Source: Candidatus Altimarinota bacterium (GTDB lineage Bacteria > Patescibacteriota > Gracilibacteria > BD1-5 > UBA2023). Taken from it: a stretch of DNA of 45,277 nucleotides. A program made the translations under genes and the position numbers. The stretch is from the NCBI GenBank assembly GCA_028277205.1, contig JANQGT010000027.1:1-45277 (forward strand), written 5' to 3'. Positions 9,811 to 41,245 of this stretch are shown piece by piece. Each line of letters opens with the position of its first letter. Within the stretch, counting starts at the first letter, position 1. The notes under the pieces were generated by a model that saw only the letters and a program-made list of their open reading frames with translations, was not told the DNA's origin and did no database searches.

Positions 9811-10053
9811 TTACTCTTTGCTTTCCCGCCAGCTGATGGCGCCCACGGGACAGGCGGCGATGGCGTCGTCCACATCTTTTCCCTCGTAGGATTCGCAGGG
9901 TTTGACGATGGCGACGCCTTCGTCTTCGTCCATCTCAAACACCTCGGGAGCGACATGCACGCAGGTCTCGCACCCGATACACGTCTCGTCGACATACGGG
10001 ACTCGGCGGAGAGCATTTGCGGCGCTTTGGACTTTTTCCGGATTGATGGGCAT
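9811..10053 (-). CDS. ferredoxin, single 4Fe-4S type
   Basis: An 80-residue acidic protein with ETCIGCETCVHVAP supplying a CxxCxxC triplet and AIAACPVGAI supplying the fourth cysteine in a CP motif. This is the one-cluster bacterial 4Fe-4S ferredoxin pattern. It is a soluble low-potential electron carrier. Its partner enzyme is not evident nearby, as the neighbours are a DNA-pump ATPase and polysaccharide genes. No in-frame TGA; stop is TAA. The gene is divergent from the Wzy-like gene with 82 bases between the starts. Confidence 0.93.
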   Translation of the reverse strand: MPINPEKVQSAANALRRVPYVDETCIGCETCVHVAPEVFEMDEDEGVAIVKPCESYEGKDVDDAIAACPVGAISWRESKE

Positions 10054-10135
10054 GATGTTTCGTCTTTGGAGAAAAACAAATGGGATTGCGAATTGTATTC
10101 GTCTCTATATGATAATCAACCCTCATCATTTTCAC

Positions 10136-11422
10136 ATGTTTGACCGACTCACCCGACTCCTGCTCGTACTGCTGCCGTTTCATGTGCTGCTGTCCATATT
10201 TTTTCAGTTTGAGGTTGGCATCCCATACGTCGCTTTTTGGAAAGAAATCGTCCTGCTTGTACTTGCTTGACTGCTCGTAGCCGACTGTATCCGACGGCGC
10301 GCATTTCCAAAGCTCGATGTGCTCGACTGGCTCGTCGGCGGCTACGTCGCGTATATGCTTATGATTTCGCTCGTATCGGGGACATCGATCGCGGGGATCG
10401 TCTACGGCGGACGGTATGCATTCGAGTTTCTCTTTGTACTCATCCTCTATAAACACGGGGCATACCTGCTCTCACGATCGGTGTCGTACTATGTCCGCCT
10501 CTTTCTCTTGAGCGCTACCATTGCCATCCTCATGGGAATACTCGTACGATTCGCGGTCGGTGAGGATATTCTTTTGTATTTTTGATTTTCCGCCAATCTC
10601 TCAAACTGGTCACTCGGTGAGAGCATTCCTATCTATCACGGCATTCCGCAGGCGAATGTGCGGCGGTTTCAGGGGATATTCGACGGACCAAATCCGACGG
10701 CGTATTTTCTGCTCGTATCACTCGGCGCACTCTGGTACTCGGTGCGTACGCGGCGTGACTACTGGGGCATCGCGGCGCTCTGGACGCTCGTGCTACTCGG
10801 ACTCATCCTCCTCACCTATTCGCGCAGTGCCCTCGTCGGCATCATCTTGGCGAGTGGTCTGACGCTCGCACTCCTCCTGCGCACGATCATAAAGAAATAC
10901 CGGTATACGCTCCTCTCCCTCGCACTCATCGCAGGGGTGCTCGGATTTGGATTTTATCTGCGGTACGAGCACTCTCTCGAAAAAATATTTTTGCGTGAAG
11001 GCTCTACAAAAGGACATCTGGAGCGCATGACGATCGGACTCGAGCGCTTTGTAGAAAAGCCCTGGGGACACGGACTCGCCGCCGCCGGTCCGGGATCGCG
11101 ACATACGTACGATGTTACGGCACTTTCCAGTGACGAGCTGCGCGATATGGAGGACTACACCATCCCCGAGAGCTGGTATATCCAGCAGCTCGTCGAGGGG
11201 TGAGTCGTAGCTTTTGTTCTCTTTGTCTGGATCATGCTCGTCATCATGTGGCGGACATTTGCATTTTCGCCGGTGCTGTTTTGGATGGTGTCCAGCGTAC
11301 TTGCGATGAATGTATTTTTGCACACCTTTGAGGCGCTGTATATATCCATTGCGCTTTTCACACTGCTCGGTATCGTCGTCTCTCCCGTCCGTAATGCCCG
11401 GATCCATGCGCTGCGATGATAG
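10136..11422 (+). CDS. O-antigen ligase/polymerase-like membrane protein (Wzy_C family)
   Basis: A 428-residue polytopic membrane protein with TGA-Gly codons at 10268-10270, 10583-10585, 11201-11203 and 11417-11419, the last followed directly by the TAG stop. About ten or more hydrophobic helices flank a large loop with IYHGIPQANVRRFQGIFDGPNPTAYFL and ERFVEKPWGHGLAAAGPGSR, the pattern of the O-antigen ligase/polymerase superfamily. It would polymerise lipid-linked glycans or move them to an acceptor at the outer face. It heads a polysaccharide block with a glycosyltransferase, a large membrane protein and a flippase. An ATG at 10109 is an in-frame alternative start. Its last 17 bases overlap the next gene. 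Confidence 0.8.
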
Positions 11423-12593
11423 ATTTACACTCTCGTTTGCCGGGAGACTGTCGGAGGAAAAGGGATTTGATCGACTTCTTGTCGTGCTTGATGCGATTTG
11501 AAAACACATTCCGATACGACTGCTCGTCGCAGGAAGCTGACCGCTTGAGCGACTCCTGGATGCCCGGGCGGATGTCATCGACGGTCGCAGTGTGCCGATT
11601 GCCGATATCGATTCACTGGCATCTCGAGATCGCGTGCATATCATCCGTCTGGGATGGAGGACAGTGTCCGAGGTACTGGAGATATTTGCAATGTCGGATG
11701 GCGTCTGCATGCCATCGCGCTTTGTAGAGACATTCGGGTACAGTGCGCTCGAGGCGCTCTCTGTCGGGACGCCCGTGATCGGACCGCGCGTCGGCGGACT
11801 GGAGCAGTTTATCCCCGAAGAACTTGCAATCGATGTTTTTTCGGATGACGCTGCGGATCGTCTTGCCGGTATTCTCGCGCATATTCGCAAGCACTCTGAT
11901 CAGATCCGCCCGAATGCCCATGCGTGTACACAAAAATTTACAAAAGAAGCGTGGCTCGAACACATGTCGCCGATCCTCTGATCACGCAAAAAAATCCTCC
12001 TCGTCTCCGACTATATCGACGCCATCGGCGGGACAGAGCGGCACGTGCTCGACATTGCGGACGCACTCTCGCAGGCGGGATGCGACGTGCGATTATTTGG
12101 AAAAAAAGTCGAAAATTGGCGCCTGTCGAAATCCGAGAAAATCCGCGATATGCTCGCGACGTTTGCGCGAGGGTGGGGGAGGAGGGAGGTACGCACCATC
12201 CTGGACGAATTTCGTCCCGAGATCGTCTGGACACACGGCATCACAAAGGTATTTGATATCGCCACGATCGAGCGGCTTTTGGCTGCGCGTACGCTGCATA
12301 TCCATACGTATCACGACTTTTCGCTCTTTCATCCCTTTGCGAGTGCGATGCGAGGGATGGATGATATGCCGGTGGATGATTCGCTTTTTTCGTGGCTTGC
12401 ATGCGGACATACCAAAAATCCCCCCAAGCTCGCCTATCTGGTCGCAAAGTATTTCAAGGTGAAACACCTTCGAAATCTGCTCTCGCATGCTGATTTTCAT
12501 ATCGTCCCGAGCGAATTTCTCTCGCCGGTCGTCGAGCGATTTATCCGTCCATCTCGGGGGCGGATCCTGACGGTGGCGCACTTTCTTCGATAG
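11406..12593 (+). CDS. GT4-like glycosyltransferase with C- and N-terminal halves in swapped order
   Basis: One 395-residue reading frame with TGA-Gly at codons 36, 48 and 192, ending at TAG. Residues 7-190 are the nucleotide-sugar-binding (C-terminal) Rossmann half of a GT-B enzyme. It has LSFAGRLSEEKGFDRLL, LLVAGSGPLERLL, and EX7E at Glu108-Glu116 in ETFGYSALEAL, then VGTPVIGPRVGG. Residues 195-395 are an acceptor-side (N-terminal) half: KILLVSDYIDAIGGTERHV, WTHGITKVFDI, HIHTYHDFS and ADFHIVPSEF. The total length equals one normal GT4 enzyme, so it reads as a circular permutation. The alternative is two half-genes joined by a rearrangement. It probably adds a sugar in the surface-glycan pathway. 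The frame overlaps the Wzy-like gene by 17 bases and its 3' end overlaps the opposite-strand gene by 53. Confidence 0.8.
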
Positions 12594-15500
12594 CAGACTG
12601 TACGGGTCTATCCGGCAGCACCCGAAACAGCGCTGTCCAGCCATGACCCACGTTTTGCGCTATGAGCTTGGAGAGTTGTTGATCACTCATGCTGGGACTT
12701 CGCTCGATCGCACTCGAAAGCCAATCAAATGATCGACTCGCATCCGTCGGCAGCGCATTGGTACGGGCGAGCTCGGCGATATATCCACGGCATGCGGAGA
12801 GTTTTTGGCTGCGGTGGATGCGCGAGAGTCCGGCATCAGTCTGCATGTACGACTCGGAGTTGACATGCGCGAGCGTGATAAATTCGTCTCTTGTGAGGAT
12901 ATTTTTTTGTGCGAGGGCGAGCTCCAGACAGGGACTGTCGGTCGCGATGAGCTGTAGTCTGTCACTCTGAAATGCCAAAATCAGACCCTCGAATCGGCGA
13001 GTGAGATCGCGACGGGGATCTTTGTCTATCGTCGCAGCATTCAGATCCACCAGCAGAAATCCAAACCCGGCATCGCTCATGTGCTCGATGGTCGTGTCGG
13101 GATCGTCGTGAGCGAAAAATACATCGAATCGCCGCACGAGACTATCCTCGTAGTAGCGTCGAGGATTATCATCGATAAAGTAGGTCAGAAACGTCCCGAT
13201 GCGATAGATGGGACCGGTCTCGCGGATATCCTCCGGCGGAAAGAGCACGAGATCATACAGTGCCTCGAGTGTATCCTGGGCGTCGTTTCGGATACTCGTC
13301 GCCTCGACGGGAGAGATGTCAGCGATCCGTGTGATATCGGCAGCGAGGATGCTTCGCAGGATGATTTCCAGAGTCTGAAAATTTCGCGTTTCTGCGAGAT
13401 TTTCCTCCAGAGTATGACGCAAAAGCGGTGCTTTCACCGTCTGCATCACCCGATCAAACAGCGCATCTCTGTCGGATATATTCAGATGCGCGAGGATGGG
13501 CAGGTATTTCGGCTGACTGGAAAATATGCTCTCGTTTGCCGTTTGTCGTCCGGATCGATAGAGCTCGTATCCGCGCTCATGCAGACTCTCAAATGCTTCT
13601 GGAATACCAGTACGAATAAAAAATATCCCGACGATCATCATGAAGATACCGGACGCAAAAAATCGGACGTACCGGGATTTGCCGCTCTCATGCTCATCGA
13701 TACGAGACATATGCGATGCTGCGACGGCGATATACGAGAGCAGGATAAAGTACAGCATGATGCCGTACCACGGAATGCCGTGCCCCGAGAGTCCGTACAA
13801 AAATGCGTACACCGATCAAAAAAGCGCAAGCGCCCAGAGTGTCCTCCATTCGCGAGAGCTGCCCTCATGCACCTGTCGCGTACCGTATCGGAGGGCGAGT
13901 GTGAACGCTATCAAAATCCCGAGGAGGATGCCGTATCCCTCGGGGAGCATCCATCCGGAAAAAAATTCCGTCATGCCTCGTGTGTGCTGGAGCGCGTCTC
14001 ATACGGATGCCGTGATGGAGTGTGATCCTATCGTCCCCTGTCGGACTGCGGAGGCGATGGCATCCGCGATGGGGGGCGCCGCCGTATAGGCGAGATAGGC
14101 GAGCGTGGATGAGACGATGAGCAGAGAAAACCACCATCGCTGCGGGAGAAAGAGGAGAATACCGGGAAAAAATGCGAGGTACCAGTACCCGATCTGCGTA
14201 AATGCTCCGCTTTGATTTGTCTGCATCGTCATGTTGTACGGGAGCTTCAGGTAGTTGTTGATACCCGGTTCGTAGCCCAGATACCGTCAAAAATCTTCAT
14301 TGGTTGTTTGTCCCTCTCTGTCTGCGGCGATGACGCGTTCGTATCGTGACTGGCGTTCGGAGAGTTCTTCGGGAGTGTAGATCGCCTCAAAATCCGGTTT
14401 GAACCGGGGTGATTCTCCGCTTATGAGCGTTTGGATCGTCGGAGCATTTTCAAAATGCACGGCGTGAAATACCAGCCACGGTGCGACCACTCAGACGCAT
14501 CCTGCGAAAAATACCGCTATCCATCCGACCGCGCCGAGAAATTTTCTATCTCACCATCATACGATGATGATGGCGTAGCCGAGGATGGCGAGCGCTGAAA
14601 ATACCATCGTGATGACTCCGAGCGATACTCCTCATGTCTCGGGGATCACCACTTTGAGAAATTCCCAGAGTCAGAGTCCCGTAAAGCTCGCGATCAAAAA
14701 TGCAAAAAACGAGAGAAATCCCACCACGCCAAAGACCGCACCCGCAAATACCGAGACGAGTCACAAGAGCAGCATCACCGCCGTGAGCTTTATGGTAAAG
14801 GCGAAACCGGTAAGCACTCCGATGATCATCATCCAGAGGATATTTTCCCGAGTGAAAAACCGGAATGCCCCTGACTGCATACCCGGTATTACCCGCTCGC
14901 GCACGTACCAGATTGCCGTGTAGAGCGCCGTGATACTCACGAAGAGGAGTGCCGGATCGAGCTTCATGTCCTTCGCCTGCTGAAATATGATCATGGGCGT
15001 CGCGATGACGATCGCGGTCATGATCGACGGCAGATGCAGAAATGTCGCTCGTCGCATCAAAAGTCCCGATATCGCCGTCCAGACGCCGATGGCGGCGAGG
15101 ATGCCCCCCAGATTATTGAGAAAAAATGCCTGCGTCGCCGACCCCGCCAGATAGCCGATACCCGTCACCGTCTGCCATGAGGCCAGTCCCATGCCGGGCA
15201 GTATAAAGCCCTGTGTCGCCATGAGACGGGGATAGTTCATATAGACGCCGAGGTCGTCCCAGCCTATGGGGAGCGGACGGACGATACTCAGAAAATTTAC
15301 TGCGAGAACGAGCGTGATGACAAAGAGTGAAAATTCGAGTGTGATCAGCGGCAGATTGAGATTTTCCATCCAGTCGCGTCCACCGCGGTGCGCCCGATAT
15401 TCGACTGCGTATGTCCAGAGGGATGCGACGGCTTGTCGGAGTTCTTTATGGGAAATGATCGCAAATACTCACACTGTCAGTAGCAGTGTCCAGACAGTAT

Positions 15501-16035
15501 ACAGCCCGAAAAACCCGAGCACCGCCATGATACTCGCAAATTTCGCGAGTCCGAGCCCGAGCGGCAGCAGTGTGCACAGACCACTGTTTTGCTGCATGGA
15601 CTGTGCGAGTCCCAGTATGCGCGCGACCCGCATGCCGAGTGCCCACCAGAGCAGTCCGAGCCCGAGCGGGAGGACGAGGTATCCGATGATGGATGCAAAT
15701 AATGTGAGCGCATTACCCGCGACGGATCCCGGCATTCCCGCCTCCTCGAGCACCGTGAAGTACAGGATACATACGACGAGCACTTGTGCGATCAGGAGCA
15801 GTCCGGGATATATCGGTCGCAGGATGATGGTCTTTGCATTGAAAACGACGAGGATGATTTTGTACGCCAGATAGGCGAGCGATACACCGAAGATGTACAC
15901 CGGAATACCCGCGATGTCTCATGAGCGGGCGATCGCATCCCACGTCACCTCCCGAAGACCGTCCGCATAGTAGAGAAATATGACGAGCGTCGCGACGATG
16001 ACCACGAAAAACAAGCGCAGGAGAAAGCCGAGCAT
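12541..16035 (-). CDS. large polytopic membrane protein, GT-C glycosyltransferase-like
   Basis: A 1164-residue protein with about eleven TGA-Gly codons, ending at TAA. The start at 16035 gives a leading helix (MLGFLLRLFFVVIVATLVIF). About the first 780 residues hold well over ten membrane helices. An early loop has the acidic pair WDDLGVYMNYPR near residue 260, where GT-C enzymes keep catalytic Asp residues. The last 370 residues, after the final helix near IFFIRTGIP, are mostly soluble and helical, and would lie outside if the GT-C topology holds. GT-C enzymes use lipid-phosphate sugars. The placement between a glycosyltransferase and a flippase supports a glycan role, but no close family is recognised. 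The 3' end overlaps the permuted glycosyltransferase by 53 bases. Confidence 0.75.
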
Positions 16036-16044
16036 AGAGGAGAT

Positions 16045-17604
16045 TTATGAGGAGTCGGAGCGCCTAGCACGCCGCAGTGTCCGGATGATGTTTCGGGTAT
16101 CGGAGAAATTGGCGAGAGCGTAGACGAGTATAGACGAAAATCCCAGCCCGCCAAGTATCACAAGAAGCAGGATACGATCATCCGGGAGCATGGGAGTGAT
16201 GTATCGTCACGCCGCCACGATGACGATCAGTGCCACGATATTTTTGATGATAAACAGGATTCGGAGTTCACTTGCTTCTTTTTTCAAAACATACTCCGAC
16301 AGTCCGTACATGACGACCCACGCGATGGCGACACCCAGACTCACGCCGCTCGTGCCGAGTCCCTCTATCAGTGCCAGAGAAGCGCCGATATTCACGACGA
16401 GTCCCACGATCAAAATGATCATGCGGATTTTCATGCGATCGGTCGCACCCAGGATCTGAAAATTGAGCTGGAGCAAAAGATTGAACACGATCAGGAGGCT
16501 ACTGTAGGCGAGGATGACTCCCGATGCGCGATACGCCTCACCGAAAAACAGCACCGCCATCGGCTCGGAAAATGCAAAGAGAAATCCTCCGGACAGCAGT
16601 CCAAATACGACAAACGCCCGGGTAAACGCACCCTTGAGGATGCGGATTTTTTTTCGGGCGGTCTCGTCGTCCATGTGCGCGATGACGGGAAAGAGAAAGT
16701 GTATCGCGGGTACGCTGAAGATAAAGGGAATATTGATGAGCGAGAGATAGTTTGAGTAGTATCCCGCCTCTCTCGTCCCGAGCAGCAAGAGCACGATCTG
16801 CATATCCACCTGAGCGAGGATCATGGTGACATTTGCCGTGAGGACGACCCAGAGGGCGTATCGGACAAACTGACCCAGCTCTCGGCGAGTGATCGCGGTC
16901 GGGACATGGGCGAGATACGCGCGCCAGTAGGAGCGATAAAGCGGCACGAGCGACACGGCGATGCCCATCCCGAGACCGAATATCCATGCGGGCGCGTATG
17001 CCGAGATCGTGCTCGCACCCGAAAACCAGAGTACCACGACGAATGCGAGCATGCTCGCGAGACGGACAAACTCAGCTCATTTTTGCAAAAAAGTGTTTTG
17101 CGTCGCCTCAAAAACGGTAGTCGCAATCTGAAAGATATTGACCCCGAGGAAAAACAAACAAAATACCGCGATGACGTCCGCCGCTCGTGCATCGTGAAAA
17201 TATCCGATGGCGAGGGCATTTCGACTGAAAAACAAGATGGCGCCGATGAGTACGCTGGTCACTATCTGCGCGCCGAATGCCACTGCGAGATACGCGCGAA
17301 ATCGTGACCAGTCTCACACTGCCGCCGCCTTTGGCAGAAAATAGTTGAGCGCCTGGGTGCATCCGAGGTCATTGTACGTGGCGAGGAGCATCACGAGACT
17401 GACCACACCGTAGAGGATTCAGATTTCCTCGACCGAGAGTGTCCCTGATAGGATGATCTTGACGGCGTAGCTGACAGGACCGAAAAAAAACGTGAAAAAA
17501 TACAGCCACTTGCCACGTCGAATAAATTTTTTTTCGAGATTTTCGTTTGGATCGATCACGATTTTGGGGTATTTAGCGAGACAGTCGCAGGTGTCGCAGT
17601 CCAT
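16045..17604 (-). CDS. polysaccharide flippase, Wzx/MATE-like
   Basis: A 519-residue membrane protein with four TGA-Gly codons, ending at TAA. It shows the paired-helix layout of MOP-superfamily flippases, about twelve to fourteen helices, with VLIGAILFF, EAGYYSNYLSLINIPFIFSVPAIHFLFPVIAHM and NFQILGATDRMKIRM. These export lipid-linked oligosaccharides across the membrane, upstream of a Wzy-type enzyme, which is also present here. Its 3' end is 10 bases before the start of the large membrane protein, so the two are probably co-transcribed. The start is uncertain: ATG at 17604 overlaps rhomboid by 32 bases, an upstream codon at 17637 is possible, and GTG at 17559 would avoid overlap. Confidence 0.82.
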
Positions 17605-18130
17605 AGTATCCGGCGCCGACGACCGCTCCCGCCGCATGACCTATGAGGCTGATGCCCGGAGAGAGTCCGATGAGGATATTGATACCCAGTACCAAAAATG
17701 CCGTATTCGCCTCGGGATGCCGCTGCGCCCTGAGCTCCAGCGCCAGATAGGCGAGTATCGCCATGGTAAATCCGCTGATGCCGATCGTCGTCGCCTGGGA
17801 AAATACAATGATGGCAGCTGCGGATGCGAGTGTCTCGAGTACGAAGAGGAGGATGTAGCGCCCCTCGCCGAGCATGCGCTCCACCGTATTTCCAAAGAGG
17901 TAGAGAAACAATGAATTTCCAAGCAAATGCAAAATCCCGCCATGCAAAAACTGAAAGAGGATCAGCTGTATTGCGAGCATTCACCAGTCCTGCGTGAAAA
18001 ATGCGAAACTATTCATCCCAAATCGCAAAATCTCCGGCTCTATAAACGAGAGGAGTGTGACGAATGCCGAGACGATGATGAGAATGTTTGAGAGGGAGAG
18101 TCGATTGTTATCGACGTTTGGATACAGCAT
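17573..18130 (-). CDS. rhomboid-family intramembrane serine protease
   Basis: A 185-residue protein with about six membrane helices and one TGA-Gly at 17981-17983. Hallmarks are the second-helix block FLHGGILHLLGNSLFLYLFG, the catalytic serine Ser119 in GISGF, and the catalytic His165 in LIGHAAG. The usual GASG is varied to GISG, but both dyad residues are in place, so it should be active. Rhomboids cut membrane-anchored proteins inside the bilayer. Its ATG overlaps the end of lgt by 23 bases, and its stop overlaps the flippase start. The lgt-rhomboid-flippase order suggests one minus-strand transcript for envelope functions. Stop is TAA. Confidence 0.88.
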
Positions 18131-32888: not shown

Positions 32889-34886
32889 ATGGCGGTCCGA
32901 CAAATGACAAAGGTGCGAATTCTCTTCCCGCGCGAAGCGCTCGAGGAGTTTTTGCAGACGCTGCAGTCGACCGGACTCATACAGGTAAACGAGCTTTCCG
33001 GACGGTCTTTTGAGATCTCAAAGGAAAGCGAAAAGGCACTGCTTTCAGCGTGTCCGTGGACGCTTCAGGAGGTCGAATCACTGATCCAGCGCCTCAAGAC
33101 CTTTCGTCGGGGAAAAGTGAATCTGCGGCAAAAATTTCTGGGTGATATCGCGGAAATGACAAAGGAAGAGTTTTCCCACTACATCGAATACTTTGACTAC
33201 AGCCATACCATCGGGCAGCTTCGACCCTTGCTCGAGGAGCACGATGCAAACGCCGAGTTGGTACACTCACTCTCGCTCGAGGCGCGTCGTCTGTCCGTAT
33301 GGGAATCGCTGCCCGTCACGATAGAGCGATCACTCGAGACCGAGTCTACCCGATGGCATACGCTCAAAATTCCGATACAAAAGCTCGCGTCTTTTCAGGC
33401 GCAGCTTTCGGATGACACGGTCCTGCAGATCGTCTCGCAAAACGAACATACCGCTCAGCTATTCCTCTGACACCTCAAAGATGACGATCGCACAGACAAG
33501 CTCTGCGAGGATTTCTCAGGAGAGTATGTCGATCTGTTTCAGCCTTCGTATGAGGGACAGCGGATCGTAGAGATCCTGCACGGCATCCGCCTCAAAAGGC
33601 GTGAGGCGCGCGTACGTCTGGAGATCGTCCGTGACGAGCTCGCGGAGATGACCAGTGCGCTCAGTGCCCTGAAGGCACTGTACGATCACCTGCTCGCCGC
33701 CGATATCCGCGAGGAGACGACGCATCATGTCGGAAATACGCGACGATTTCGATTTGTAGAGGGATGGACGCAGGAGCGACATCTCGAGCGTCTGCGCGCC
33801 ATCGCGTCAGAGCTATCGCCGTTTTCCCATGTCGAAATCATACAGCCCGAGTCCGGAGAGGAGCCGCCGGTCTATATCGTCAATCCGGTTTTTTTCAAAC
33901 CGTTTGAGATGATCACGAGTATGTACGGACTCCCGGGAAAATCCGAGATGGATCCGACCGTCCACCTCGGACCGTTTTTCATTCTCTTTTACGGGCTGTG
34001 TCTGACGGACGCCGGATACGGACTCGTACTCACCGCACTCGCGCTCGCGCTCATTCTCTTCGCGCGTATCCCACTCTCGCGCGGAGGACTGCCCTGGCTT
34101 CTTTTGTATGCCGGTATTGTCACCTTTTTTATCGGGATTCCGTTTGGTGGATGGTTTGGTGTACCGCCGGAGCGGGCGCCGGATTTTCTACTGGCAAATG
34201 CCGGAGCGCCAATATCGGAGCTGCGATACATCGGACAGGTCTGGAATCTCGGAGAAAAATCCGGTATCGACTTTCTGACGATCCTCGCCATCGCCGTCGG
34301 TATCGCCCAGATCGCATACGGGACATTTCTCTCCGGCTACTGGAAAGTCGTGCACGGCAAAACCGTGCAGGCGATCTATCAGGATTTCAGCCTCCACGTG
34401 CTCATCCTCGGTGTCGGGATTTTCCTCTTGCCAGAGCCTATCGCGGCGATACCATCGATGGTCCGCGATATCGCGCTCTGGGTGTCGGTCGGATTTTTCA
34501 TCTGGTCGCGCGGATACGGGTCGCCGTGGTATTTGCGACCGTTTGCGGGTGCATTTCTGAGTCTCGTCTTTTTCATGAGCGGCATCAGCAATGTCCTCTC
34601 ATACCTGAGACTGCTGGCGCTCGGACTTGCGACGGGTGCGCTTGCTTTCGCGATCAATGAAATGGCATGAGTACTCTCGGGATTTTTTCCGGGCATTCTC
34701 GGCATGCTCGTGTTTGTCGTGATACTGCTCGGCTGACACCTCCTGAGCATCGTGCTCAATGCGCTTTCGGCATTCGTACATTCCGGCAGACTCCAGTTCA
34801 TAGAGTTTTTCTCAAACTTTTATGAGGGAGGCGGCGCGGCATTCGAGCCGTTCGCACGAAAACGCAAATACACACTCCTCGTGTAG
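32889..34886 (+). CDS. atpI: V/A-type ATP synthase subunit I (stator a)
   Basis: A 665-residue protein with TGA-Gly at 33468-33470, 34668-34670 and 34734-34736, ending at TAG. The first half is the cytoplasmic helical arm, starting AVRQMTKVRILFPREALEEFL. The second half is membrane-embedded with about seven or eight helices: PTVHLGPFFILFYGLCLTDAGYGL, IGIPFGGWFGVP, and the ion-path segment SNVLSYLRLLALGLATGAL, whose Arg is the conserved residue facing the rotor. It forms the ion half-channels with the K ring. The gene comes 6 bases after the H-like gene. Confidence 0.95.
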
Positions 34887-34910
34887 TCTATTTTTTCACT
34901 TTTCTTTTTT

Positions 34911-35393
34911 ATGGAAACGGCTGCTATGGAAATGATGCTTCCCGGACTCGGACTCGCCTTGGCGTTTCTCGGGGTCGCGATCGCGACATTTCTCTCGGGT
35001 ATCGGATCGGTCTTTGGCGTCAGTCTTACCGGACAGGCGGGTACGGGCTTTCTAGTCGAAAAGCCCAAGGAATTCGGAAAAATGCTCGTACTCGAAGCGC
35101 TTCCGGGTTCGCAGGGAATCTACGGTCTCGTGATCTCCTTTATCTTCGTCATGACATTTGATCTTGCGACGATCGATCTGTATAAGGGATTGCAGGTTTT
35201 TGCGGCGTGTCTTCCGGTCGCGATTACGGGATACTTTTCAGCGCAATACCAAGCAAAGGTGTGCGTATCGGGAATGAATATGATCGCAAAGGACGAGAAA
35301 AACCTCGGAAAGGTCATCACGATGGCGGCATTCGTAGAGACGTATGCGATCCTCGGATTTCTCATGTCGCTGTTTATGCTGTACGCCATATAG
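34911..35393 (+). CDS. atpK: V/A-type ATP synthase subunit K (rotor ring), Na+-type site
   Basis: A 160-residue duplicated-hairpin proteolipid with four helices, no TGA, and a TAG stop. The ion-binding carboxylate is Glu143 in AFVETYAILGF; the first hairpin lacks one in the matching place. Leu64, Ser67 and Gln68 in ALPGSQGIYG together with a Gln in AQYQAK match the spacing of the sodium ligands Leu61, Thr64, Gln65, Gln110 and Glu139 of Enterococcus hirae NtpK, with Thr changed to Ser. A sodium-coupled ring is therefore likely but not shown. The leader before ATG is almost all T and C, with no Shine-Dalgarno motif. Confidence 0.95.
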   Translation: METAAMEMMLPGLGLALAFLGVAIATFLSGIGSVFGVSLTGQAGTGFLVEKPKEFGKMLVLEALPGSQGIYGLVISFIFVMTFDLATIDLYKGLQVFAACLPVAITGYFSAQYQAKVCVSGMNMIAKDEKNLGKVITMAAFVETYAILGFLMSLFMLYAI

Positions 35394-35424
35394 CACGATA
35401 ATCATTTTTTTCTAACGCGCTACT

Positions 35425-36012
35425 ATGTCCCTCCAAGCGATGCTCGCCCACCTCGAAAGCGAAAAAGAACGCGAGATTTCCCGCCTTACTGAAGAGTACG
35501 CTCAGCGCCTCGAAGCCGAGAATGCCTCGCACGAAGCTGAAATGACACGTCTTTCGGCGAGTCTCGCAGAAGAGGGCGAGCGCCTCATGCGCGAAGAGCA
35601 AATCCGCCTGCAAAAAGAACACGATCTAAAGAAAAAACGTCTCCTGCTGTCGAAAAAGCGAAAGCTCGTCGATGCGATCCTGGCGCGTCTGGTCGACAGT
35701 CTCACATCCGAGCCGAGACGAGGCGAGCTACTGTGAGTACTGCTCGACTCTATCGCAAGTGGAGACGGCGGCACGATCACTCCCGCCCGAGGGTACGGCG
35801 AGACGATCGCCGCCCTCATACGCGAGCGGGGACTATGACTGGAGCTGTCTTCAGAGGATCCGTCTCTGGACTCTGGATTTCTCTTTCGGGGTGCCGGATA
35901 CGAGAGCAATGTTTCTTTCTCTCATATCATCCATACCGTTCTCGCGGAGGATATCGAGGCGTATGTGCATTCTCATCTCATGACACACCTTTCCCATGCT
36001 CGCGTTTGATAG
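35425..36012 (+). CDS. atpE: V/A-type ATP synthase subunit E (peripheral stalk)
   Basis: A 195-residue protein with TGA-Gly at 35734-35736 and as its last codon before TAG. The N-terminal 100 residues are a charged coiled coil (LAHLESEKEREISRLTEEYAQRL), and the C-terminal globular part (ARGYGETIAALIRERGLGLELSSED) has the fold that caps the catalytic head in this family. It pairs with the H-like subunit to make the stator stalk. Identity follows from architecture and from position between K and C. Its 3' end overlaps subunit C by 17 bases. Confidence 0.88.
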
Positions 36013-37036
36013 CGTCGCGACAGCTCCCGAGCGGATTATCGACTCCTATGCGGAGGCGGTCGTACGCGCGCGCATCGATCTGCAGGAGGGAGTCTCGGCG
36101 TCACTCTTCGATCGACTGCTGCATGCGGATACGGCAGAAGAAGTCGAGAAAATGCGTCCGGATATTCCCGAGCGATGGCGACCGGAGGATATAGGCTTGG
36201 TACGGGAAATTCTCTATCGAAAATTGCGCGTACTGCGAAAGACCGTCGCAAATATCGATCCCGAGCACGGACGATTTCCGAGCCTCTGGATCGACGAGGA
36301 CATCCACAATATTCGCACGATTTTGCGCTTTCTTGACACGCAGATTTCTGAGGATTCGCTCCTGCATGACATTGGAAATTTCGCCGTCGAAGACCTCAAA
36401 AATTACGCATGGTATGATACCGGGAAGCGCGGTGATTTTCCCAATATCATCATCAAAACCATCAAAGAAGCCAAGGGCATCATGTCCGCCATGGAGCGAG
36501 ACGCCCTCATCGAAAAACGCCTGACGGAGTGGGCGCTTGCTCGAGAGTGCGCATTTCCCGACAATGAGTATATCACCGATCTCGTGCGGCTGCGGATCGA
36601 TATCGCCAATCTCTCGATGACGCTTCGTATTCGTCGGGGAAATCTAGATCTGTCAATGATGCGGTACGGCATCGAGTGATGACGGATCACCCCGGAGCAG
36701 TTTGAGACACAGCCAAATCTCGACTCCTGCCTGCAAAATCACGAGTTACTTGATATTCTCCGCGATATCGGAGAGGATCGCTTGCTGTCCGATGACGTCT
36801 TTGCATGGGCGGAGTATGATCGCGGCTGCCGTCGTCTGCTGGAAAATCGGTGCCGCTCGGCACTGTCGCTCGTCGCCGGACCGGAGCCGCTGTATGTCTA
36901 CGGACTGGCTATACGCTACAATCTTGCAGAGCTTCAGCGCCTGTTTTTCCTCGCGGATTATCGCGTAGACGAGACATCGAAACGAGATACGTCCATCGCC
37001 CCCATTCTCTCTACACTGTATGATCGAAATGTCTAA
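35996..37036 (+). CDS. atpC: V/A-type ATP synthase subunit C (central socket)
   Basis: A 346-residue, mostly helical protein with TGA-Gly at 36677-36679, ending at TAA. It follows the AtpC/NtpC/d-subunit pattern: repeats of helical bundles with DIHNIRTILRFLDTQISEDSLLHDIGNFAVEDL, RLRIDIANLSMTLRIRRGNLDL, and a late AGPEPLYVYGLAIRYNLAELQRLFFLADY. Subunit C is the funnel that fixes the central shaft on the membrane ring. It overlaps E at its start and F at its end by 17 bases each, so the three are translationally coupled. Confidence 0.92.
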
Positions 37037-37397
37037 CATCACCGAATATCGCATCGCCGTGCTCTCCGACAGTGCCACCGTTTCATTTCTCGGGATGGCG
37101 GGGTGTATCGGATTTTGCGTCGAGCCGGATATCGATTCGCGAATGCTCGGGACAAAACTGCGCGCGATCGCAGGCGAAAAAATCGATACGGGCACGGGCG
37201 AGCAGCGATCGAAATACGCCATCATCTTCGTCGATGAGGCACTCTTTGTCCGAATCCCGGAGGATGATTTTTCCCGTATCGCCGGAAAGAGCGTACCGGC
37301 GGTCATACCGCTTCCGGGTATCCGCGGCTCGACGGGGCTCGGTCTTGCGAATCTCAATGCCACTATCGAACGCGCTCTCGGTATGAGTCTCGAATAA
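37020..37397 (+). CDS. atpF: V/A-type ATP synthase subunit F (central shaft)
   Basis: A 125-residue protein with no TGA and a TAA stop. A CheY-like alpha/beta fold is visible in [20 protein letters not shown] and [18 protein letters not shown], ending with the conserved [14 protein letters not shown] turn and a C-terminal helix that would pack on subunit D. It is slightly longer than usual. An ATG at 37029 is an alternative start with less overlap with subunit C. Confidence 0.92.
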
Positions 37398-37420
37398 TCT
37401 TATCCCTTTTCGTTTTTCCT

Positions 37421-39199
37421 ATGCAACAGCAGGCAACGATCATCAAAGTCTCCGGTCCTCTCGTCGTCGCGAGCGGAATGAACTCGGCACGCATGTACGA
37501 GGTCGTACGCGTCTCGGAGAAAAAGCTCGTCGGCGAAGTCATCCAGATCGAGGGTGGTACCGCATCCATCCAGGTCTATGAGGAGACGACCGGTATCGGT
37601 CCCGGCGAACCGGTCTATCTGACCGGTATGACGATGAGTGCCGAGCTCGGTCCCGGTCTTTTGGAAAATATGTTTGACGGTATTCAGCGACCGCTCTCGG
37701 CGATCGAGCGCGAGTCGGGACATTTTATCGGGCGCGGGATCGACGTGCCGGCACTCGACCGGACGCGAAAATGGCAATTTAGTCCGAAAAAACAAGTAGG
37801 CGATTTTGTAAAAGAGGGCGATATTCTGGGAGAAATTCCCGAAACTACCCTCATCACCCACCGCATCATGACGCCTCCCGGCGTCTCTGGAAAGATCGCC
37901 TCGATAGAAATAGGGGAGTTTACGGTCGAGGAGGCGGTCGCCACCATCGAAACCGAGGGCGGGGGAGTGGAAACCGTCACGCTCATGACGCGCTGGCCCA
38001 TCCGTCGCGCTCGTCCCATCGCGCGAAAATTTGTTCCCAGTAAGCCCCTCCTATCCGGAGTCCGGGTTCTCGATGTTTTTTTCCCGGTCGCGAAGGGAGG
38101 AGCAGCGTGCAGTCCCGGTCCGTTCGGATCGGGAAAAACCGTCACCCAGCAATCGCTTGCGAAATACTCTGACGCCGAGGTCATCGTCTACGTCGGATGC
38201 GGGGAGCGCGGAAACGAGATGACGGATGTACTCGCCGAGTTTCCAGAGCTAAAAGATCCCAATACCGGGGAACCCCTGATGAAACGCACTATCATGGTAG
38301 CAAACACGTCGAACATGCCGGTCGCTGCCCGGGAAGCATCGGTCTATACCGGTATCACCATCGCGGAGTACTACCGCGACATGGGCTACCACGTCGCGCT
38401 CATGGCGGACTCTACGTCGCGCTGGGCGGAGGCGATGCGCGAGATCTCGGGACGCCTGGAGGAGATGCCCGGTGAGGAGGGATATCCCGCCTACCTCGGG
38501 TCGCGTACTGCGGCATTTTACGAGCGGGCGGGGTATGTCTCCTGTCTCGGCAGCGATGATCGCGAGGGATCGCTGACCGTCATCGGCGCCGTCTCGCCCC
38601 CGGGTGGAGATCTCTCGGAGCCGGTGACGCAAAACACCTTTCGAGTGACGAAAGTATTTTGGGGGCTCGATGCCTCGCTCGCGAAAAAACGGCACTATCC
38701 CGCCATAAACTGGCTCTCCAGCTACACGCTGTATATGGAAAATATCGCGGAATATCTCAATAATTTGGCGGGATCCGATTTTACCGCGCTGCGCGAGGAA
38801 GCACTCGCCATCCTCCAAGAGGAAGCCCGCCTCGAAGAAATCGTTCGACTCGTCGGTGTCGACGCGCTCTCCATGCGCGAGCGACTCCTCCTAGAGACGG
38901 CGCGATCCATTCGCGAGGATTTTCTTTTTCAAAATGCATTTGATCCCGAGGACGCCTACACGCCGATTTCCCGACAGTATCTGATGCTCAAATCGATTCT
39001 CGCTCTCTATACTCGCATGAAGCCCATCGTCGAAGACGAAGACTTTGAGTTTTCCCGGTATCTTGATCTTGTGGTTCGCAGCGAATTTGCCGGACTGTCA
39101 AAGAAAACCGAGGATGAGCTTGCATCGCTTCTTGCGCGCATAGAGACTGAAACAAACGAGCTGACTCATGCTCCCGCCGCCATTTCTTCCGCTTCCTAA
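37421..39199 (+). CDS. atpA: V/A-type ATP synthase catalytic subunit A
   Basis: A 592-residue catalytic subunit of normal length with no in-frame TGA in nearly 1.8 kb, ending at TAA. The beta-barrel domain starts [16 protein letters not shown]. The non-homologous bulge domain is present (about residues 115-195, [16 protein letters not shown]). The P-loop is GPFGSGKT at residues 233-240, followed by [11 protein letters not shown] and [31 protein letters not shown]. It hydrolyses or makes ATP at the A-B interface. Alone it would not reveal the unusual code. No Shine-Dalgarno motif: the leader is CTTATCCCTTTTCGTTTTTC. Confidence 0.98.
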
Positions 39200-39211
39200 T
39201 CGCTTTTCACT

Positions 39212-40597
39212 ATGCAACGCGAATACCGAAATCTCTCCTCCGTCATCGGACCGCTCGTCGTCGTCGAGGGTGTAGAGGGAGCCAAATACGACGAAACAGT
39301 CGAGGTCATCCTCGCCTCGGGCGAGTCTCGATTTTGAAAAGTGCTCGAAGCGCACTCCGATCGCGCGCTCGTCCAGATGTTCGAGTCGACGCAGGGCTTT
39401 TTGAAAGAGGGGGCACGAGCGCGCTTTACCTGAAAAACGCTCGAGCTCGCCGCATCGCCCGATATGCTCGGACGCATTTTTGACGGACGTGGACGCCCGA
39501 AAGACGGCGGTCCCGAGCTCATCGCCGAAAAGCGTCTGGACATAAACGGTGCCGCCATCAATCCAGCATCGCGCGCTCAGCCAAACGATTTTATCCAGAC
39601 GGGTATCACGACGCTGGATCTCCTGAATACACTGGTACGCGGACAAAAACTTCCGATATTTTCCGGAGCCGGTCTCCCGCACAATAAAATCGCCGCACAA
39701 ATTGCCCGCCAGGCAGCCGTCAACGACGGATCGGATTTCGCCGTCGTATTCGCTGCGATGGGAGTCCCGTTTGAGGAGGCGGAATTTTTCACCTCCGAAT
39801 TTCACAAAACAGGCGCACTGGAGCGGTCCGTACTGTTTATAAACACTGCCGCCGACCCGGTCGTCGAGCGCATCGCCACACCGCGATACGCCCTCACCGC
39901 CGCAGAGTATCTTGCTTTCGAGCGGGATATGCACGTCCTCGTCATCCTGACCGACATGACAAACTATGCCGAGGCGCTGCGCGAAGTGTCTGCCGCCCGG
40001 AAAGAAGTACCCGGACGCCGCGGCTATCCCGGCTATCTGTATACTGATCTCGCGACACTGTACGAGCGTGCCGGTCGCGTGAAGGACAAAACCGGCTCCA
40101 TCACGCAGATCCCCATCCTCACGATGCCGGAGGACGACATCACGCATCCCATCCCCGATCTCACGGGATATATCACTGAGGGGCAATTCGTACTCTCGCG
40201 TGATCTGCATAATAAAGGAATTTACCCCTGCGCCGATGTCCTGCCCTCGCTCTCGCGCCTGAAAGACAAGGGACAAGGCGACGGAAAAACACGCAAAGAT
40301 CACGGATGAGTGCTCAATCAAGTCTACGCCGCCTATGCCCGCGGAAAGGAAATCCGCGAGCTCGCCGTCATCCTGGGTGAATCGGCGCTCTCTGATGCGG
40401 ATCGACAGTATCTGCGATTTGCCAATGAATTTGAAAATCGCATGGTGCGTCAGGGTATCGACGAAAATCGCACTATCATCGAGAGTCTCACGCTCGCATG
40501 GGAGCTCATGGCGATCCTGCCGAAAAACGAGCTCAAGCGTGTGAAGCCCGACGATATCGAAAAGTATCTCCCGAAAGCCGAATCCGAAGCCGCCTAA
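39212..40597 (+). CDS. atpB: V/A-type ATP synthase regulatory subunit B
   Basis: A 461-residue protein with TGA-Gly at 39335-39337, 39431-39433 and 40307-40309, ending at TAA. It starts [24 protein letters not shown] and has the non-catalytic site loop [19 protein letters not shown], in which the Walker Lys is absent as usual for [26 protein letters not shown] and [19 protein letters not shown] follow. It forms the hexameric head with A. The first 84 codons become readable only with TGA as Gly. Spacing to A is 12 bases. Confidence 0.97.
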
Positions 40598-40612
40598 TCT
40601 CTCCAAGCGTCT

Positions 40613-41245
40613 ATGCCGATACTCAATGTCAATCCGACCCGGATGGAGCTCATGCGCCTGAAGACGCGCCTCAAGCAGGTGACGCGCGGGCACAAACTCC
40701 TCAAGGACAAACAGGACAGTCTCATCCGCGAATTCATGCAGATCGTGCATACCGTGCGCGAGATGCGACGCGAAGTGGAGGACGAGCTGTCGCGGGTACA
40801 GCGTATGTATCTGCTCGGTGCAGCGCCGATCATGCCTACCGTACTCGATGCGCTCATGAGTCGCCCCGAGCTCGATACCCGCGTCGGCATGACTATAAAG
40901 AACGTCATGTCCGTGCGCGTCCCGGAATTTCAGGTGCGTACGGAGGGGAATATTTTCGCCTATGGATTTCTCTCGACGAATGGGATACTCGACATCGCAT
41001 TTGAAAAGCTGCAAAAACTCGCCCCAAAGCTCGTAGAGCTCGCAGCCCTCGAAAAGCGCGCGGAGCTCATGTCATCAGAGATCGAAAAGACGCGGCGCCG
41101 CGTGAACGCGCTCGAACATCGCATCATCCCCGATGTGAAAGAAACAATCAAATTTATCCGGATGAAGCTCTGAGAGCTGGAACGCGGCAACATCGTCAAT
41201 ACGATGATCGTAAAAAAACGGGTGGAGGCGCGAGCAGCAGGGTAG
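40613..41245 (+). CDS. atpD: V/A-type ATP synthase subunit D (central shaft)
   Basis: A 210-residue protein with one TGA-Gly at 41171-41173, ending at TAG. It has the long antiparallel coiled coil of subunit D: NPTRMELMRLKTRLKQVTRGHKLLKDKQD at the start and ALEKRAELMSSEIEKTRRRVNALEHRIIPDVKETI before the end. It rotates inside the A3B3 head. It is the last gene of the operon; no strong terminator is seen in the 91 bases that follow. Confidence 0.95.

Follow-up and report, generated by a model that had tools for sequence, protein, structure and literature searches.

GT-B glycosyltransferases are very common, and most annotation profiles assume that their domain order is fixed, as does the notion of the inter-domain linker as a hinge. 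The locus described here raises the question of whether an enzyme of the GT4 kind can be naturally encoded with its two domains in the opposite order. It lies in a 45,277-nt stretch of DNA (the window, analysed at its full length) from a genome of 1.06 Mb in 52 contigs, the relatives of which are recorded as Gracilibacteria. An earlier note, made from the sequence alone, had read positions 11406-12593 as one 395-residue frame encoding a circularly permuted GT4 enzyme. We conclude that the product is very likely (probability about 0.9) a GT4-type GT-B glycosyltransferase with a natural circular permutation.

Reversed domain order in one frame read with TGA as glycine

Under translation table 11, the frame 11406-12593 contains in-frame TGA at codons 32, 45 and 192. 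It is one 395-aa frame solely with TGA read as glycine (code 25), a requirement on which the earlier note was silent; its claim of a single frame held only on that reading. The reading is supported. TGA as glycine is the published code of Absconditabacteria/SR1 (PMC8080830) and is documented for Gracilibacteria as well, codon 45 aligns with a glycine column that is invariant across the permuted-GT4 family, and the genes of two relatives, G017 and G232, specify the complete C-N protein (donor-binding C domain followed by acceptor-side N domain) and lack in-frame TGA. Because of the invariant glycine and these full-length, TGA-free proteins, 11406-12593 is one gene; a wrong genetic code joining two genes was ruled out by the same two relatives. 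In most relatives, the start lies at this position or a few residues from it.

In Pfam, the first half of the protein matched PF00534 (Glycos_transf_1, 58.7 bits vs a cut-off of 26.4) and the second half PF13439 (Glyco_transf_4, 37.9 bits vs 28.5), the acceptor half diverging from its model. The donor domain precedes the acceptor domain, which is the reverse of the GT-B order. Searches of NCBIfam and of PDB sequences gave matches almost exclusively in the first half, which aligned with the C-terminal portion of GT4 enzymes already known, and no NCBIfam glycosyltransferase equivalog scored above its curated cut-off, all 21 matches being far below. Features of the locus are listed in Table 1; further motifs in the protein are TPVIGPRVGG, KILLVSDYIDAIGG from aa 196, and HIVPSEF.

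Table 1. Features of the permuted GT4 gene and its neighbours in the window
Feature	Position	Strand	Remarks
Permuted GT4 gene, 395 aa with TGA as Gly	11406..12593	+	Stop codon TAG
First half (aa 1-192), donor-binding Rossmann domain, usually C-terminal	11406..11981	+	PF00534 at aa 5-145, E 6.7e-16
Second half (aa 193-395), acceptor-side Rossmann domain, usually N-terminal	11982..12590	+	PF13439 at aa 207-378, E 2.4e-9
GRLSEEKG (aa 13-20), putative donor diphosphate-binding Arg14/Lys19	11442..11465	+	Both residues invariant
EX7E motif, E108...E116	11727..11753	+	E108 invariant; E116 at least 90% in set of 17 relatives
Seam residue Gly192 (TGA)	11979..11981	+	Joins last helix of donor domain (H180-191) to first strand of acceptor domain (E196-203)
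Gly208-Gly209 loop, acceptor domain	12027..12032	+	Gly209 invariant; Gly208 at least 90%
His303-Asp304, acceptor domain	12312..12317	+	His303 invariant; Asp304 at least 90%
Wzy_C O-antigen ligase/polymerase-like membrane protein	9902..11422	+	Gene end overlaps ATG start of permuted GT4 by 17 nt
Convergent 1164-aa protein without Pfam/NCBIfam match	12541..16035	-	Conserved beside permuted GT4 in 6 own-family loci
MurJ/Wzx-like lipid-linked glycan flippase	16045..17637	-	Near permuted GT4 in the window

The invariance of Arg14, Lys19, Glu108, Gly209 and His303, and the conservation of Gly208 and Asp304 at 90% or above, were seen in an alignment of 27 sequences with 22-34% identity to the query. 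Arg14, Lys19 and Glu108 were likewise invariant in 17 relatives, with Glu116 conserved in at least 90%; several members from the Absconditabacterales-like family have a non-acidic residue at the latter position. Following what is generally known of GT4 enzymes, we take Arg14/Lys19 to be donor-phosphate binding, E108...E116 to be the EX7E motif and the Gly-Gly and His residues to be the acceptor-side catalytic loop.

When the two halves were exchanged in silico, alignments with two normal-order proteins that had covered one half grew to cover almost the full length. Local scores against proteins of normal order increased for all five permuted proteins tried (e.g. from 339 to 543 and from 154 to 281). 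Similarly, a profile of the permuted family matched the normal-order GT4s of the phylum as two pieces with their order swapped.

AlphaFold predicted the structure of the window protein with pLDDT 91.2 and pTM 0.87, and that of an SR1-group member with pLDDT 91.5 and pTM 0.88. A two-Rossmann GT-B fold with a cleft is a putative reading of these confident models, made without an order-independent superposition. Foldseek against the PDB mostly matched one domain (about 180-200 columns for most matches), with TM scores of 0.63-0.79 to isolated GT4-type C-domains and about 0.3 to whole enzymes, as expected of a sequential aligner given a permuted chain. The helix that ends the donor half (aa 180-191) is followed within four residues by the strand that opens the acceptor half (aa 196). 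In GT-B enzymes, the C-terminal helix crosses back to the N-domain; the old termini are therefore close, and a short seam is possible.

The structure prediction and the search of related genomes described below had both been proposed in the earlier note. Its placement of GRLSEEKG, E108-E116, TPVIGPRVGG and HIVPSEF held, as did its claims that the donor half comes first, that the cut falls in the inter-domain linker and that the protein is as long as a single enzyme. Its reading as a circular permutation is supported: reversed order, linker cut, length, related genomes and half-exchange alignment agree.

Distribution of the permuted form and its exceptional members

The family was searched for in 353 genomes of the class, among which f1 is the window's own family, f5 the Absconditabacterales-like family and f18 a standard-code lineage. 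Full-length collinear matches were present in most f1 and most f5 genomes. The acceptor-domain profile found the family in 69 genomes (23 of 27 in f1, 45 of 49 in f5 and one in f18), and 63 of these carry C-then-N in a single frame (21 f1, 41 f5 and the one from the standard-code lineage). Matching named records are MAGs of Candidatus Gracilibacteria, SR1 and Absconditabacterales. Within f5, three single-contig assemblies of 1.04-1.18 Mb carry the C-then-N form. Recurrence of the reversed order in 63 genomes, including these three, excludes chance and misassembly, and an assembly artefact was ruled out on this basis; raw reads of the window's MAG were not part of the evidence.

The f18 case, G232, uses the standard code and has its permuted GT4 at L109:167-1216, adjoining atpDC. 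Contamination was ruled out for this genome, the AtpD of which is 88% identical to that of another genome of its own family. The remaining families of the window's order, f2 and f3, are without the permuted form; their matches are ordinary GT4s, as seen for f2 in G120 and G122. Outside the class, a phylum-wide sample gave ordinary-GT4 matches only, mostly to the donor half; the ones that were examined have the normal order. As to a viral origin, only two weak donor-half matches were found in IMG/VR, and Foldseek gave no convincing full-length permuted match among viral proteins.

A minority of members depart from the permuted form. In G072, a single 412-aa frame (L143:431-1666) encodes the two domains in the normal order, inside an otherwise permuted clade. 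In G052 the halves are two stand-alone single-Rossmann-domain genes on different contigs (L144:503-1105 and L145:4977-5528), whereas in G067 they are adjacent genes in the order C, N (L149:4512-6069). G068 has the acceptor half only. One in-frame TAG in the family gene of G014 and the overlapping frames of the halves in G091 are most likely errors or decay. The earlier note had held that its reading would be refuted by normal order in relatives, by an assembly join near 11979 or by the halves being separate genes. The second is answered by the single-contig genomes; the first and third failed as general explanations, relatives sharing the reversed order, with normal order only in G072 and separate genes only in a minority (G052, G067) of the same clade.

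In trees, the whole family separates as a single clade from the sampled GT4s of normal order (support 100/100). The standard-code permuted G232 branches first, G072 is nested near G067, and the split forms sit among permuted members. An AU test did not reject G072 as sister to all others (p 0.318). We favour an ancestor that was already permuted, fission and reversion having come later, without regarding this as proven; likewise, it is likely but unproven that the reversed order is ancestral to at least most of the family and that split and normal-order members are rare variants. Clearly, the reversed order is not obligatory, as shown by the normal-order G072 and the split G052 and G067. The existence of normal-order, unlinked-gene and adjacent-gene members indicates that chain order is evolutionarily fluid in this family. 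By a small margin, we also incline towards a bolder reading, in which this is a near-universal, natively permuted GT4 family of Gracilibacteria and Absconditabacteria; permutation, fission and reversion would all have occurred, so that a core envelope glycosyltransferase would function however its chain is connected.

Possible origins of the reversed order

Tandem duplication followed by loss of the outer halves, the route suggested by the earlier note, remains unproven: no N-C-N-C or C-N-C-N tandem intermediate was seen in the family genomes examined. Given the split forms and the amoebal Alg13-Alg14 precedent, fission and reversed re-fusion is as plausible.

The rival that survives best states that the gene arose by reverse-order fusion of one gene for a donor domain and one for an acceptor domain, which came from a split GT-B enzyme or from two different GT4s; the product would work alike. 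In its favour, split forms exist (unlinked in G052, adjacent C and N in G067), Alg13/Alg14 was split and re-fused reversed in amoebae (PMC8993221), and the acceptor domain has few normal-order relatives (G446 at 84 bits, others at most 66), the donor domain resembling many GT4s. However, the normal-order member G072 and the normal-order outgroup G446 are related to the family in both halves, consistent with one parental enzyme, and the split forms are placed among permuted ones in the trees and so look like later fissions. On balance, the evidence weighs slightly against this rival.

A second rival proposes that reassignment of TGA to glycine fused tandem in-frame GT4 genes into N-C-N-C, of which the outer halves were then lost. 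The seam residue of the window protein is a TGA-coded glycine, and the standard-code relative G557 has two tandem normal-order GT4 genes in one frame with a single TGA between them (L106 1523-3793), which would fuse under code 25. Yet TGA is not enriched at the seam (22/62 seam glycines vs 685/1742 overall; Fisher p 0.60), and G232, with the standard code, has the permuted enzyme and branches first. This route is very unlikely.

The weakest rival, two neighbouring gene fragments (pseudogene pieces) or an assembly join merged merely by reading TGA as sense, draws on the three in-frame TGA under table 11, one exactly at the seam, but is all but excluded by the TGA-free fused proteins of G017 and G232, the fused C-N gene in single-contig genomes, the conserved residues of the permuted GT4 and the published SR1-group code.

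Neighbourhood, proposed function and relation to known systems

The Wzy_C gene is directly upstream of the permuted GT4 in 13 of the 18 f1 loci with upstream sequence, often behind FtsW/RodA, and a prepilin-like gene is downstream in some f1 loci. The f5 loci lack the Wzy_C linkage, their neighbours being TrmD and a T4SS-pilin-like protein; assignment to a pathway is weak for this reason. From Wzy_C upstream and the flippase nearby, a role in a surface glycan pathway is suggested, an inference from neighbourhood alone.

Two side observations concern the surroundings of the gene. Proteins like the convergent neighbour are 1164-1200 aa long, appear hydrophobic by eye, and are convergent with the permuted GT4 in six Gracilibacteria loci, as in the window and at L053:3457-7053. 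Farther along the window, a V/A-type ATPase operon lies at 32889-41242 (+; I, c-ring, AC39, A, B and D subunits), and contig C14 of the same genome encodes an F-type AtpD, so that both kinds of rotary ATPase are present in 1.06 Mb.

For the permuted GT4, order, conservation, distribution and a confident fold prediction are shown. Catalysis, retaining stereochemistry, substrate and pathway are all inferred from conservation and context, and no activity is known. In the proposed mechanism, a seam of few residues would link the two Rossmann domains where the C- and N-termini of the unpermuted enzyme had been, the new termini lying in the former inter-domain linker. Folding of the halves is predicted to give the usual two-domain GT-B enzyme, its active site being in the cleft. 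Binding of the activated sugar would fall to the first half (Arg14, Lys19 and EX7E) and presentation of the acceptor to the second (Gly-Gly loop and His303); most likely, a retaining glycosidic bond would be made on a lipid-linked acceptor. The putative surface glycan pathway would also use the Wzy_C ligase/polymerase and the flippase, and its product may be a polysaccharide or protein-linked.

With its split and normal-order homologues, this widespread natural permutant offers a ready test of whether retaining catalysis needs the hinge, and the normal-order homologue in G072 is a natural comparison partner for the permuted members. Sequential profile and structure searches detect merely half of such proteins. 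The bacteria that carry the permuted GT4 are tiny and probably host-dependent; if the inferred pathway is correct, the enzyme would belong to a surface-glycan step conserved in predatory or epibiotic CPR bacteria, the glycans of which are almost unstudied.

The earlier note knew of no GT4 family with this order, and no permuted GT4 was found described in the open-access literature that we searched (subscription literature and CAZy were not covered). Retaining GT-B enzymes of GT4 (e.g. MshA, PimA and GlgA-like C-domains) have in common with the permuted GT4 both domains, EX7E, GRLxxEKG, the Gly-Gly loop, the His motif and the predicted two-Rossmann fold, but place the acceptor domain first, whereas the permuted GT4 is reversed with its new termini in the inter-domain linker. 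A phylum relative, the normal-order GT4 of G446, is one of the normal-order relatives that score best with both halves (N 81 bits, C 88 bits); it has the N-C order and the standard code and stands outside the permuted clade. The GT99/GT107 retaining beta-Kdo transferases (WbbB, KpsC) are likewise unusual, modified GT-B enzymes of bacterial glycan assembly, but they are unpermuted: a helical insertion displaces their N-terminal Rossmann domain, which is reduced (PMC9587256). A GT99/KpsC-type architecture was ruled out for the window protein. The Alg13-Alg14 reverse fusions of Entamoeba and Dictyostelium, which arose by split and re-fusion (PMC8993221), resemble the permuted GT4 in having the donor domain first and the acceptor domain second. 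In contrast to it, they are eukaryotic UDP-GlcNAc transferases of the MurG/Alg13-14 type, a GT-B lineage other than GT4; no Glyco_tran_28_C (MurG/Alg13 family) match was found in the window protein with Pfam, which gave GT4-type models only, and no bacterial or GT4 case of reverse order is described in PMC8993221. The reversed Alg13-Alg14 fusion of amoebae is thus the closest precedent, and the permuted order is new for GT4 as far as the searched literature shows.
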